Below, piece after piece: positions 20,005 to 33,419 of a DNA stretch of 35,619 nucleotides. The notes below the pieces were generated by a model that saw nothing but the letters and a program-made list of their open reading frames with translations, searched no databases and was not told where the DNA came from. The DNA is from Methanoculleus sp. (GTDB lineage: Archaea > Halobacteriota > Methanomicrobia > Methanomicrobiales > Methanoculleaceae): contig JASGMC010000011.1 of NCBI GenBank assembly GCA_030156625.1, positions 1 to 35,619 of the forward strand, written 5' to 3'. The translations under genes were made by a program, and so were the position numbers. Each line of letters starts with the position of its first letter. The first letter of the stretch is position 1.

Positions 20005-20060
20005 CAGGCATCCTCCAGCAAGGAGTTCTCGGGCGGGAGAGGGATAGGGTTTTCTCTTCC

Positions 20061-20180
20061 GGTCAGGCCGTGGCCGCCGGAGACCGGTCAGGCCGTGGCC
20101 GCCGGAGACCGGTCAGGCCGTGGCCGCCGGAGACCGGTCAGGCCGTGGCCGCCGGAGACCGGTCAGGCCGTGGCCGCCGG
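20061..20180. repeat. 25-bp tandem repeat, 4.8 copies
   Basis: Four perfect 25-bp units starting at 20061, 20086, 20111 and 20136, plus a 20-bp partial unit at 20161-20180. No spacers, so not a CRISPR. Each unit holds a GTG (20070, 20095, 20120, 20145, 20170) and a GGAG 12 nt before the next GTG, and the unit has no stop in any plus frame. Because 25 is not a multiple of three, each GTG is in a different frame. The repeat runs directly into the RibD-like coding sequence. Confidence 0.97.
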
Positions 20181-20629
20181 ACGATCCTCGCCCCCTCTGC
20201 GTCATCGTCGACAGCAGGGGCGTGCTAAAAGGTCTGCTCCACTTCTACCGGAACATGGAGCATACGAAAGACGTCGTCGTCCTCGTCTCGGAGGCGACGC
20301 CGGAGGACTACCTCGACTACCTCCGCGAGCGGGAGTACCTGTTCATCCGGTGCGGCATGGATCGGGTGGACCTCCGGGGTGCTCTCCGGGAGCTCGGAGA
20401 GCGGTTCGGGATCGCGCGGGTGGTCTCCGATTCCGGCCCCGATTTAAACGACGTCCTGATCCGGGAGGGGATCGCGGACACGATCAGCCTGATCGTCCAC
20501 CTGGTCATCGTCGGGGATGGGAAGAAGAAACTCTTCGGCCGGGCCGGGGGACGGGTGGCGCTGGAACTCCAGAAGGTCGTGCCGATGGAGCAGGGCACGG
20601 TCCACCAGGTGTACGCCGTGAAGAAGTAG
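20120..20629 (+). CDS. RibD-like reductase, N-terminally truncated
   Basis: From about 20181 the frame encodes the C-terminal part of a RibD/dihydrofolate-reductase-like protein. It starts at D-P-R-P-L-C-V-I-V-D-S-R-G, then has V-V-L-V-S-E-A-T-P-E-D-Y, R-V-D-L-R-G-A-L-R-E-L, V-V-S-D-S-G-P-D-L-N-D-V-L-I-R-E-G and a C-terminal I-V-H-L-V-I-V-G. In intact homologues some 60-80 residues precede this point and hold the nucleotide-binding start; here they are missing and replaced by the tandem repeat. The S-G-P-D-L-N replaces the usual S-G-G-T-L-N, another sign of decay. Translation could only begin at the in-frame GTG 20120 of repeat unit 3. Either a decayed gene or one silenced by repeat length; I favour a degenerate gene. 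Confidence 0.6.
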   Translation: MAAGDRSGRGRRRPVRPWPPDDPRPLCVIVDSRGVLKGLLHFYRNMEHTKDVVVLVSEATPEDYLDYLREREYLFIRCGMDRVDLRGALRELGERFGIARVVSDSGPDLNDVLIREGIADTISLIVHLVIVGDGKKKLFGRAGGRVALELQKVVPMEQGTVHQVYAVKK

Positions 20630-26072: not shown

Positions 26073-26146
26073 TGGGCCTGCCCGGATTCGAACCGGGGAT
26101 CTTCGCCGTGTAAGGGCGACGTCATGACCGGCTAGACCACAAGCCC
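26073..26146 (-). tRNA. tRNA-Val (UAC)
   Basis: A complete cloverleaf on the minus strand: acceptor GGGCTTG/CAGGCCC (one G-U pair), D arm GTC/GAC with an AGCCGGTCA-type loop, and anticodon stem TCGCC/GGCGA with loop CTTACAC giving anticodon TAC. The T arm is CCCGG-TTCGAAT-CCGGG and the discriminator is A. No CCA is encoded. No good TATA box at the right distance is evident. Confidence 0.93.
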
Positions 26147-26325
26147 CGTGGATGCCTTATAGTGTTTTGCACCGTGACGGATAAACGTGTTGCCTGTCGG
26201 GGATTCCGGTGCCATTGCCTGTGTGCCCTCCTGTGCTTCACTGCTCCCGTTCGCAGGGATGCTCCACGCAGCCTCTGGATACTTGCCGGTTGGGAATGGG
26301 TTGGCGATTCTCCCCCACCCCACCC

Positions 26326-26564
26326 GGCCTTCGGCCTCCTCCTCCGCACCTTCGGTGCTCAAACTCCTTCCCCTGCGGGGAAGTCGTTCCCCGCCCCAAG
26401 GGGCGGGGGCAGTGCGTGGCGATAAACGGCCGGCGGCACGGCGGTCGTTCGAGCACCGTCAGGTGCGCAGCAGGATGCTCCTTCTGGAGCATCGTTCGAG
26501 CACCGTCAGGTGCGCAGCAGGACGCTCCTTCTGGAGCGTCGTTCGAGCACCGTCAGGTGCGCAG
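26326..26564. repeat. Array of nine perfect hairpins including a 47-bp tandem repeat
   Basis: Stem-loops in order: 26326-26336 (GGCC), 26346-26358 (GCACC/GGTGC), 26367-26383 (CTTCCCC/GGGGAAG) and 26389-26408 (CCCCGCCCC/GGGGCGGGG). Then a 47-bp unit at 26447 repeated at 26494 and partly at 26541. Each unit holds GCACC-GTCA-GGTGC, and the two full units also hold an 8-bp stem with loop TTCT (26474-26493; 26521-26540). The two 8-bp stems differ by a paired change (T-A to C-G). No protein is supported here. It lies between tRNA-Val and the end of mch. Confidence 0.85.
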
Positions 26565-26693
26565 TCCCATTGAAGGCCGCATGACGGGATATGCGCGACA
26601 TTCCGATAGGGAACAGTTTGCCCGGAGCACCCTGCAGAGATGCCCCTCTGTAAAGAGTTGAGGAAACGTATCGACAAAGCCTAAAAAAGGAGT

Positions 26694-27641
26694 TCAGATA
26701 AACCCGAAGGACTTCAGCGTCACTTCGGGGTTGACTGCTCCCACGTGGTAGACCTTGCCCTCGGAGAGCTCGTTGATGACCACCTCGGCCGGGGAGAAGA
26801 GCGAGGTGTCGATCTGGTAGAAGTCGAAGTTGGCTTCCTTGAAGATATCGTAGAACGGTTTTCCGTATCCCTTGGACTTGTTGCTCGGGATCCGGTCCAG
26901 GTAGTCCTTGATCTCCGGGGCGTTCATCGTCAGCATGATGCTGCCGTGGTAGATCGTCGCGTCGTTGGTGCAGCCCATCGCCTTCGTGCCGTCCTTCTTG
27001 ACGGGGGCGATCGGGGCGTGGCCGATACCGGCGGAGATCTTTCTCGTATCGAACCCGAGTTCGTTCAGCTTGTAGATCGCGGTCTCGACGCAGCGGCCCG
27101 CTACCTGGATCGAGCCGACGAGCGAAGCCGTGGGAGCGACGACCGCGCAGGTGTTCGCCACGTCCACGTTGCAGGCCTCGGCGATGTTCTCCATCACGCC
27201 GGCGTTCGGGAGGTGGTCGCTCTCGAGGCAGATGACCGCGTAATCGAACTCATCCTCGTAGTCGATGACCTCGTAGGTGTGCTTGGGCTTCAAGGAGAGC
27301 GCCCGTGCGGGGCCGCTGCCCATGGCGAAGTACTTGTTGACGTTGACCGTCCAGCCTGCCTTCTGTGCGCCGAGGCATGCAATGGACGGGAAGTCGGTGC
27401 TGACCTCGATGAACGGGATCGGTATGTCCCTGATCCGGCCCATGGTGATGTCTACCTCGCCGAGCCCGCCCATGCAGATCTCGGTGAAGCGTCTTCCCGT
27501 CAGGTACCCGCCGGTCGTGCTGACGCCGCAGTCGACGATGCGTGCGCCGTTGTCGAGCTCGTGCGGGACGGCATGAAACTCCTCGGCGTATTCGAAGAGT
27601 TCCTCAAAAATATCCAGTGCCAGTTCGTTCACGCTGAGCAT
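26694..27641 (-). CDS. mch: Methenyltetrahydromethanopterin cyclohydrolase (Mch)
   Basis: Interconverts N5-formyl- and N5,N10-methenyl-tetrahydromethanopterin, the third step of CO2 reduction to methane. The 315-residue protein has the family's length and motifs: L-S-V-N-E at the start, V-D-C-G-V-S-T-T-G-G-Y, G-L-G-E-V-D-I-T, D-F-P-S-I-A-C-L-G-A-Q-K-A-G-W, the Y-F-A-M-G-S-G-P-A-R-A stretch, A-P-T-A-S-L-V-G-S-I-Q-V and G-H-A-P-I-A-P-V. The ATG at 27641 is chosen because GAGG lies 8 nt upstream; an in-frame ATG-like start at 27665 lacks one. It lies 49 nt downstream of orc1/cdc6 on the same strand with no clear TATA between them, so read-through is possible. Confidence 0.96.
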   Translation of the reverse strand: MLSVNELALDIFEELFEYAEEFHAVPHELDNGARIVDCGVSTTGGYLTGRRFTEICMGGLGEVDITMGRIRDIPIPFIEVSTDFPSIACLGAQKAGWTVNVNKYFAMGSGPARALSLKPKHTYEVIDYEDEFDYAVICLESDHLPNAGVMENIAEACNVDVANTCAVVAPTASLVGSIQVAGRCVETAIYKLNELGFDTRKISAGIGHAPIAPVKKDGTKAMGCTNDATIYHGSIMLTMNAPEIKDYLDRIPSNKSKGYGKPFYDIFKEANFDFYQIDTSLFSPAEVVINELSEGKVYHVGAVNPEVTLKSFGFI

Positions 27642-27690
27642 GTGGAAAACCTCATCAGAATACAAACGGTGGGGGAACAGATAAGGATTA

Positions 27691-31576: not shown

Positions 31577-33232
31577 ATGTCGGAAAGACTACATCTGGGG
31601 GCCAGAGGCAGACGCATTCTCATCGCCGTCGCGATCATACTCACGGTGATCGCCGCCGTCGTGCTGGTTCTGCACTTTTATCCGCCGGTACCGGTGCCCC
31701 CGCCCCCCCCTCCCCCGCCGATCACCCCGATTCCCACGACGCCGGCGGTGCCCCCGGAGGTTCCCGGACCGACGGTCGTCGTCGCGGCAAGCGACAGCAG
31801 TTCCGCGGCGAAAGCCCGGGCGGACGTCGTGTGCGACGGTACCGACGACCAGCTCGACATCCAGAAGGCGATCGATTCGCTGCCGTCGTCGGGCGGCACG
31901 GTCGCTCTCCTGGAAGGCACGTTCAACTGCGCCGGGAGCATCTACCCCGCCGCGAACTCCATGCTTCGCGGGGAAGGGCCGGATGCAACGTTCCTCGAGT
32001 TCAGCCGGAACGGGCGGCTCCTTGTCTCGCAGGAATCCGTCACGCTCTACAACTTCCACATCCGGGGCACCGGCTATCCGCAGATCGAGCCCGACCGGTG
32101 GCTCGGCGTGGTCACCATCTACGCGAGTCACGCGAAGGTCCTGGCCGTCGAGGGGACCGCGGATGCAACCACCCAGGCGGTCTTCCTCCTGCTGCACGAC
32201 CCGGACGTCTATGCGCCGACCCTGGAGGACGTCGAGTTTATCAACTGCAAGGCCGTGGACGCCGGGACCTACGGGTTCCTCCACAACGCCTGGGGAACGG
32301 CCAATAAAGTGATCCGGGACGTCCGCTACGAGAACTGCGCCGCGATCAACTGCGGTAGGAACGGGGCGTTCAACCCCTGGGTGACCGGGTTCAACTTTGC
32401 GGAGTTAAACGACATCGAGGGCCTCCGCGTGACGAACTGTCTTGCCGAAGGCAACCTGGAGTCCGGGTTCCACTTCGAGTGGGACCCCGAGAAGCGGGAT
32501 TGCATCCTCACAAACTGCATCAGCAGGAACAACGGGCAGAAAGACTACCCGACGAAGCCCTACGTCCAGAGCGACATGTCCACCCACTACTTCGGGTGTG
32601 GTTACTATGCCCCCCGGGGTGACATCACCTTCATCAGCTGTTACTCCGAGGGGAACAGTCGGCATGGGTTCTACGCGACGAACGGCGGCAAGCTCTACAG
32701 TTGCGTCGACAAATGCGTCGGCGCCGGGAAGACCGATTACCGGCTCATCCAGCCGGCTTCGTTCTACGCCGCCCCGACCCGGTCGATAGCCCCGTCCCTG
32801 GTGCTCGAGAACTGTTCGAGCATCGATTCGCACGGCTACGGTCTCCATATCGATCTCGCAAGCGACGTCTGGATCAAGAACTTCCGCCTGGAGAATCCGG
32901 CCGGGATCGACGGCAAGGCAACAAACCTTGGCGGGTCACAGGGTGGGCCGCTGGCCAACTCCGTGGTGAACATCTATGCGTCGGGCGACCGGGCTGAAAC
33001 GTTGATCTGGGCCAGGAATAACGAAAATGTCGAGTACTCCGGCCGAATTGTCTCGGACTCGGCAAAGCCGTTCGTGATCGAGGGCGACCGCACCAGAAAC
33101 GTCCGGATCAAGAACATGGAGATCGTCTCCGCAAGCCTCACGCCGTTCACCAACGGTGTGATCCTCACAAACACGGTGCCTGCGGGAGCCGTGACGTTTG
33201 AGAACGTGGCGGTCACTTCCGGGGTGCCGTGA
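31577..33232 (+). CDS. Membrane-anchored right-handed beta-helix protein, paralogue 2
   Basis: 551 residues. The N-terminus is a signal anchor (R-R-I-L-I-A-V-A-I-I-L-T-V-I-A-A-V-V-L-V-L) followed by a Pro-rich spacer (P-V-P-V-P-P-P...) that would lift the domain off the membrane. The rest is a beta-helix domain closely similar to paralogue 1, with V-C-D-G-T-D-D-Q-L-D-I-Q-K-A, Y-G-F-L-H-N-A-W-G-T, N-P-W-V-T-G-F-N-F-A-E-L-N-D and a C-terminal half shared more closely with paralogue 3 (D-M-S-T-H-Y-F-G-C-G-Y-Y-A-P). The ATG at 31577 has AGGT about 11 nt upstream. The gap before it (31316-31576) shows a TTAAATGG that may be a weak TATA. Confidence 0.85.
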   Translation: MSERLHLGARGRRILIAVAIILTVIAAVVLVLHFYPPVPVPPPPPPPPITPIPTTPAVPPEVPGPTVVVAASDSSSAAKARADVVCDGTDDQLDIQKAIDSLPSSGGTVALLEGTFNCAGSIYPAANSMLRGEGPDATFLEFSRNGRLLVSQESVTLYNFHIRGTGYPQIEPDRWLGVVTIYASHAKVLAVEGTADATTQAVFLLLHDPDVYAPTLEDVEFINCKAVDAGTYGFLHNAWGTANKVIRDVRYENCAAINCGRNGAFNPWVTGFNFAELNDIEGLRVTNCLAEGNLESGFHFEWDPEKRDCILTNCISRNNGQKDYPTKPYVQSDMSTHYFGCGYYAPRGDITFISCYSEGNSRHGFYATNGGKLYSCVDKCVGAGKTDYRLIQPASFYAAPTRSIAPSLVLENCSSIDSHGYGLHIDLASDVWIKNFRLENPAGIDGKATNLGGSQGGPLANSVVNIYASGDRAETLIWARNNENVEYSGRIVSDSAKPFVIEGDRTRNVRIKNMEIVSASLTPFTNGVILTNTVPAGAVTFENVAVTSGVP

Positions 33233-33336
33233 CGGCCCGTGCGTGGACCCGATATCCTGGCGGGCGGTGTGCCGCCGAATCCTGCTCAAAGCCGGATAAC
33301 CGGCGTTTATCCCCGGCCGATCCCGTTGCGGCCGGG

Positions 33337-33372
33337 GTGCGGCAGGGGGTGCGGCAGGGGGTGCGGCAGGGG
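33337..33372. repeat. 12-bp tandem repeat, three copies
   Basis: GTGCGGCAGGGG occurs three times head to tail in the intergenic region behind paralogue 2. No role is evident. Confidence 0.85.
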
Positions 33373-33419
33373 GGGTGGCTGCCGTCCCGGCTGGCCGGTG
33401 GCGGCGGTCTTTGCATTTC

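Follow-up and report, generated by a model that had tools for sequence, protein, structure and literature searches.

Hairpins between mch and tRNA-Val in Methanoculleus belong to a dispersed, probably mobile family of double-hairpin DNA units

The cluster of hairpins that lies between mch and tRNA-Val in Methanoculleus sp. is probably a stack of non-autonomous mobile DNA elements, each a double hairpin, that are dispersed through the genomes of the genus. Movement would occur at the level of DNA, by an enzyme acting on the shape of the hairpins. The evidence comes from the grammar of the units, the pairing of their stems, their copy number and the junctions that they make with the surrounding sequence.

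The cluster and its surroundings

The window analysed is the whole 35,619-nt stretch of contig JASGMC010000011.1, and in it the cluster (26326–26564) sits between two minus-strand genes (Table 1); a Cdc6-like gene is also found in the window. Together with mch it identifies the DNA as that of a methanogenic archaeon, and the repeat family, which is shared with named records, points to Methanoculleus. The conserved block next to tRNA-Val lies outside the repeats and is probably the tRNA promoter, and the U-tract past the mch stop is probably the mch terminator, both judged from sequence. The tRNA-Val neighbourhood of the cluster looks incidental, and neither tRNA-Val nor mch would play a part in the explanation of the units proposed here.

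The nine hairpins described in the first-pass annotation are real. A hairpin scan identified eight perfect hairpins with stems of at least 5 bp and loops of 3–5 nt within the cluster, and the 4-bp GGCC-TTC-GGCC is the ninth, whilst 1000 dinucleotide shuffles of the same stretch gave a mean of 0.85 hairpins and a maximum of 4. The predicted RNA fold of the cluster has a z of -6.15. The richest other 239-bp stretch of the window, near 33081, holds 6 hairpins; the region 33041–33373, second in hairpin richness, adjoins a 12-bp tandem repeat, GGGGTGCGGCAG. A 25-bp perfect tandem repeat of 4.9 copies is present at 20059–20181.

The right-hand part of the cluster is an array of three tandem 44-nt units on the minus strand with a CTG trinucleotide before each. 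The 47-bp period noted earlier is made up of the 44-nt unit plus CTG, and the number of units is three and not two. Within the array the stems GATGCTCC/GGAGCATC and GACGCTCC/GGAGCGTC do differ, as first reported, by a paired T-A to C-G change, and the GCACC/GGTGC stem is confirmed as occurring four times with two loops (TTC once, GTCA three times). The CCCCGCCC and CTTCCCC hairpins belong, with the first GCACC stem, to a separate structural part that has the opposite orientation to the array. Since the second hairpin of the array units opens with CGAC/CGAT instead of CTCC, we regard the array as a variant form.

Unit 1, CG[CACC-TTC-GGTG]CTC-AAA-CTCC[TTCCCC-TGC-GGGGAA]GTCG-TT, is flanked by parts of a larger host repeat, CCTC on one side and CCCCGCCCC on the other; the copy of this repeat at 26310..26424 reads CCCCACCCC..GGCCTTCGGCCTCCTC / CCCCGCCCC..GGGGCGGGGGCAGTGCGTGGCGATA. 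Complete copies of this host repeat elsewhere have the inverted ends TATCGCCACGC/GCGTGGCGATA. Copies without an inner unit are found at L027, L032 and L035, and in others, for example L014, L021, L042 and L145, the place beside TATCGCC holds units. The end motif occurs 31–32 times in each of the two genomes in which it was mapped (G003 and G020), and in these no parent transposon was identified. This host repeat of the units, ~200 bp long and MITE-like with inverted ends CAGTGGACCGTGGGGATATCGCCACGC, is seen at L015, L032 and other loci. A second dispersed palindromic repeat, CTTCGCGNNCTTCGCGGCTTCGCGTGAG, often hosts units as well; it is seen in the spacers L062, L065, L071, L072, L074 and L082 and also at L033, L038 and L040.

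Table 1 Features of the tRNA-Val/mch spacer and its two flanking genes, in window coordinates
Feature	Position	Strand	Basis
tRNA-Val(TAC), left neighbour	26073..26146	-	ARAGORN; Rfam
Block upstream of tRNA-Val (putative promoter)	26147..26195	-	conserved in alignment of seven orthologous spacers
Larger host repeat, incomplete copy, split by unit 1	26310..26424 (about)	+	copies in own genome
GGCC-TTC-GGCC hairpin of host repeat	26326..26336	.	sequence
Unit 1	26345..26388	+	family grammar; site empty in L068, L070
CCCCGCCC-CAAG-GGGCGGGG hairpin of host repeat	26389..26408	.	hairpin scan
Array unit 3: B hairpin CACC-TGAC-GGTG, linker, degenerate second hairpin	26424..26467	-	
CTG separating array units 3 and 2	26468..26470	-	
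Array unit 2: B hairpin and GATGCTCC-AGAA-GGAGCATC	26471..26514	-	
CTG separating array units 2 and 1	26515..26517	-	
Array unit 1: B hairpin and GACGCTCC-AGAA-GGAGCGTC, paired change against array unit 2	26518..26561	-	
CTG ahead of array	26562..26564	-	
Perfect hairpins, stem at least 5 bp	26346-26358, 26367-26383, 26389-26408, 26453-26466, 26474-26493, 26500-26513, 26521-26540, 26547-26560		
A-run on plus strand, U-tract directly past mch stop (putative terminator)	26683..26688	-	kept in most orthologous spacers
mch, methenyltetrahydromethanopterin cyclohydrolase, right neighbour	26694..27665	-	Pfam PF02289

Unit grammar, stem pairing and spread

The unit is a double hairpin of the form 5'-CG[B stem-loop-stem']CTC-NNN-CTCC[A stem-loop-stem'](G/A)TCG-NN-3', mostly 42–44 nt long. 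Hairpin B is CACC/GGTG as a rule, with AAGACC, AAACCC, AAACTC and AAAACGC and their complements also found. The stem of hairpin A takes 19 perfectly paired forms among 154 units that were located by the linkers and the B 3' arm only, and 86 of the 154 have perfect 5-bp stems. Position by position, 136, 147, 100, 146 and 141 of these units are paired, against means of 68, 79, 41, 115 and 81 and maxima of 83, 96, 55, 125 and 98 in shuffled controls; the copies share descent and the counts are not counts of independent events. Single mismatches are found in 43 A stems, of which 29 are C.C, nearly all at the third position, and these third-position mismatches match a recurrent allele, TGCCC-TTC-GGCCA. 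The other single-mismatch stems include five of G-T and four of A-C type, small numbers that show no bias of G-U over A-C. Pairing is thus kept in the copies elsewhere, and the random, unpaired stem changes that the first-pass annotation had named as contrary to its reading were not found in the 154 units. Compensatory evolution of hairpin B was considered and rejected: 135 stems are consensus, eight carry single unpaired changes and none a compensated single-pair change. Hairpin A, together with a single orthologous GCACC/GCATC hairpin, therefore carries the argument from covariation.

In its own genome (2.16 Mb, 82% complete) the 251-bp cluster region has matches at 58 places, and its first 105 bp have matches in 26 of the 41 genomes searched. 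The core motif CGCACC-N3-4-GGTGCTC-NNN-CTCC matches 143 times in the own genome, 77 forward and 66 reverse, whilst the reversed motif used as a control gave no match there. It is present in 32 of 35 Methanoculleus genomes, and the copy number per genome runs from 0 to ~150, the highest counts being those of the unit-rich part of the genus. Across the order (199 genomes) it occurs in just three other genera, with 10 copies in one genome, which is of the same family, and one or two in each of the remaining two. Among the matches listed in a scan of named genomes, most are to Methanoculleus and to Methanomicrobiales or Euryarchaeota MAGs, and the single matches in unrelated bacteria look like chance. 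Spread by viruses was discarded, the nine single matches in a viral collection being so few that they may be background. In the literature searched, a body that lacks most subscription journals, no description of the family was found apart from a satellite list discussed below, and the family is apparently undescribed so far.

Empty sites, nesting and flanking repeats

The orthologous tRNA-Val/mch spacers vary in length between about 110 and 785 bp, and many are without the cluster. The unit-1 site is empty in L068 and L070, holds one unit in L059 (own genome), L063 and L066, and holds two in L069. Of the 328 positions that the spacers L069 and L070 share, 321 are identical; the former has 92 inserted bases, which amount to two units. 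Nesting is also seen, in which a unit occupies the loop of another A hairpin and leaves the stem around it intact, as in GGGCG[...]CGCCC and TTCCC[...]GGGAA. Dispersed copies, presence or absence at orthologous sites and nested insertions together support the replicating palindromic repeat family that had been offered earlier as one of two readings. A more general rule, insertion at the centre of any palindrome, was rejected, the flanks being no more palindromic than shuffled ones; we therefore claim insertion only into the hairpin loops of other units.

A 3-nt direct repeat, with the three bases left of CG equal to those after GTCGNN, flanks 30 of 135 units against 10.6 expected and a maximum of 20, and the excess is seen at one offset only. 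With tandem and repeated contexts removed, 14 of 86 units have the repeat against 7.2 expected, a number reached in 22 of 5000 shuffles; exact duplication is absent from the other 72. Predicted empty sites were found elsewhere for 7 of 14 units as against 4 of 200 control joins. This is moderate evidence that the 3-nt repeats are target duplications, often eroded or replaced. No insertion was caught within a strain or population.

Units also occur in the own genome within an open frame of 844 aa, a HerA-like ATPase gene (PF01935; L030:866-3400, minus strand), at about 1969-2078 in a low-complexity linker (compare L218, L220 and L225). A similar insertion is found in G045. The gene is also encoded in two relatives, G048 and G043, where the flanking sequence is present and the units are absent.

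Mechanism, alternatives and known systems

An enzyme supplied in trans would, on the mobile-element reading, recognise the hairpin shape and the linkers on DNA, and copies would be inserted by way of a short staggered cut, often into hairpin loops that earlier copies form. Slippage or recombination involving neighbouring units may afterwards build up tandem arrays like the 47-bp one. Two processes could keep the stems paired as they change, templated (quasipalindrome) correction or selection for mobility by way of the DNA hairpin, and the data fit both. We suggest tentatively, as something possible but rather doubtful, that the units represent a class of archaeal mobile DNA in which hairpin shape and short linkers are recognised and not stem sequence, loops of the element's own copies are targeted with a 3-nt stagger, the enzyme belongs neither to the Y1 transposases nor to the reverse transcriptases, and the stems drift freely while remaining paired.

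Searches for a mobiliser found no Y1 transposase (Y1_Tnp, PF01797; IS200-type) and no reverse transcriptase (RVT_1, PF00078) in the own genome (G000, incomplete at 82%) or in nearly all unit-rich relatives; both searches gave matches in control genomes. The exceptions are the unit-rich G010, with two Y1 genes, and G012 and G048, with reverse transcriptase. Both Y1/RAYT and reverse transcriptase were rejected as mobilisers, given that almost every unit-rich genome lacks them. Most of the genomes of the genus that carry Y1 genes are unit-poor (G002, G014, G021 and G024, as against G000, G003 and G020), a pattern that may only reflect clade membership.

Spread without transposition is unlikely in our judgement. 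The units would in that case be hairpin satellites, multiplied only through slippage in replication, template switching and gene-conversion-like exchange among existing repeats, and quasipalindrome correction would give the paired stem changes. Tandem forms with a 45–47-bp period (L036, where it is 45 bp, and the array in the window) would suit such an origin, as would the position of most units in or beside other repeats, the mosaics, the absence of exact flanking duplication from most units and the pairing of stems with no wobble bias, but it accords poorly with the clean two-unit insertion between near-identical spacers, the 3-nt repeats at exactly one offset, the units in the linker of a gene that is free of them in relatives and the presence of both orientations genome-wide.

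The first-pass annotation had also considered selection on an RNA structure, which finds no support here. That the cluster is a structured RNA, or an element for transcript processing or termination in the mch/tRNA-Val region with stems selected for RNA folding, is very improbable: the strong fold (z -6.15) and paired stem changes would be expected of it, but no Rfam covariance model matches, the cluster lies outside the predicted mch and tRNA-Val transcripts (past the U-tract and upstream of the promoter block), it is missing from many orthologous spacers, the family is found in both orientations and very different contexts, and intermediates show no excess of G-U (5 versus 4). We give just as little credence to repeats of the REP/BIME type moved by a host IS200/IS605-like (RAYT) transposase. 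The units resemble these in being short, dispersed, clustered palindromes with conserved bases at the hairpin foot, and REPs in palindromes are known for some species (PMC3733652), but Y1_Tnp is distributed as described above, the stem sequence is not conserved and there is no GTAG tag.

In anatomy the Methanoculleus units are closest to elements of the mitochondrial DNA of fungi and sponges, namely the double-hairpin elements (DHE) and repetitive hairpin-forming elements (Paquin et al. 2000, cited in PMC2800124 and PMC10085805). In these, as in Methanoculleus, the repeated unit is two adjacent hairpins, short and GC-rich, dispersed between genes and sometimes inside them, present or absent in relatives and without a known enzyme. 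The Methanoculleus units are chromosomal and archaeal, and the likeness is one of anatomy, with no sequence homology claimed. They differ further from the Allomyces elements, reported to lack flanking duplications (PMC2800124), in their excess of 3-nt flanking repeats, and from the sponge elements, in which stem sequence is kept and loops vary (PMC2800124), in having stems that vary yet stay paired.

Among prokaryotes the REP super-families are closest. The units meet broad descriptions of MITE- and REP-like sequences as a dispersed, multicopy, short palindromic repeat with presence or absence at orthologous sites, and like REP, REPIN and BIME sequences they are often clustered, but they depart from them in tag and in Y1 association. 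They are archaeal and asymmetric, with two hairpins and a free stem sequence, and the constant bases are CG, CTC, CTCC and GTCG in place of the RAYT-REP GTAG at the hairpin foot, which is absent. CGTC-tagged REPs, which have no associated transposase and belong to a survey listing bacterial phyla only, are similar in that none was found for the units (nearly all unit-rich genomes being without Y1); each is a single palindrome with an 8–9 bp stem, an unpaired CGTC tag and a CCA-like tail (PMC3733652), whereas the units have two hairpins, 4–7-bp stems and a GTCG or ATCG foot. Rickettsia palindromic elements also lie within reading frames left open, but are about 150 bp long and hit many genes (PMC10969869), against 42–44 nt and, so far as observed, a location outside genes for most units, with one coding case examined. 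With prokaryotic MITEs (PMC10969869) the units share small size, multiple copies, probable non-autonomy and, in a minority of units, putative short flanking duplications; the unit, which begins and ends as CG...CG-NN, has no terminal inverted repeat and no parent transposon was identified, the MITE-like inverted ends belonging to the larger host repeat and not to the unit. In the same genus, a list in PMC6749651 includes 45- and 51-nt satellite families of Methanoculleus marisnigri. The entries give these as satellites only, with neither hairpin unit nor dispersal, a comparison by description; a 45-bp period also occurs in the unit array L036, and the 45-nt satellite may be a tandem form of the double-hairpin units.

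The paired stem changes call for caution, in that such changes within repeats can mimic a conserved RNA while reflecting a DNA element. If the units are mobile, they would be a chromosomal, archaeal counterpart of the double-hairpin elements of mitochondria, for which the mode of movement is itself unsettled. Their hosts are free-living and some are in pure culture, and with sharp junctions, empty sites and stems that are free but paired, shape recognition and target choice are directly testable in this family.
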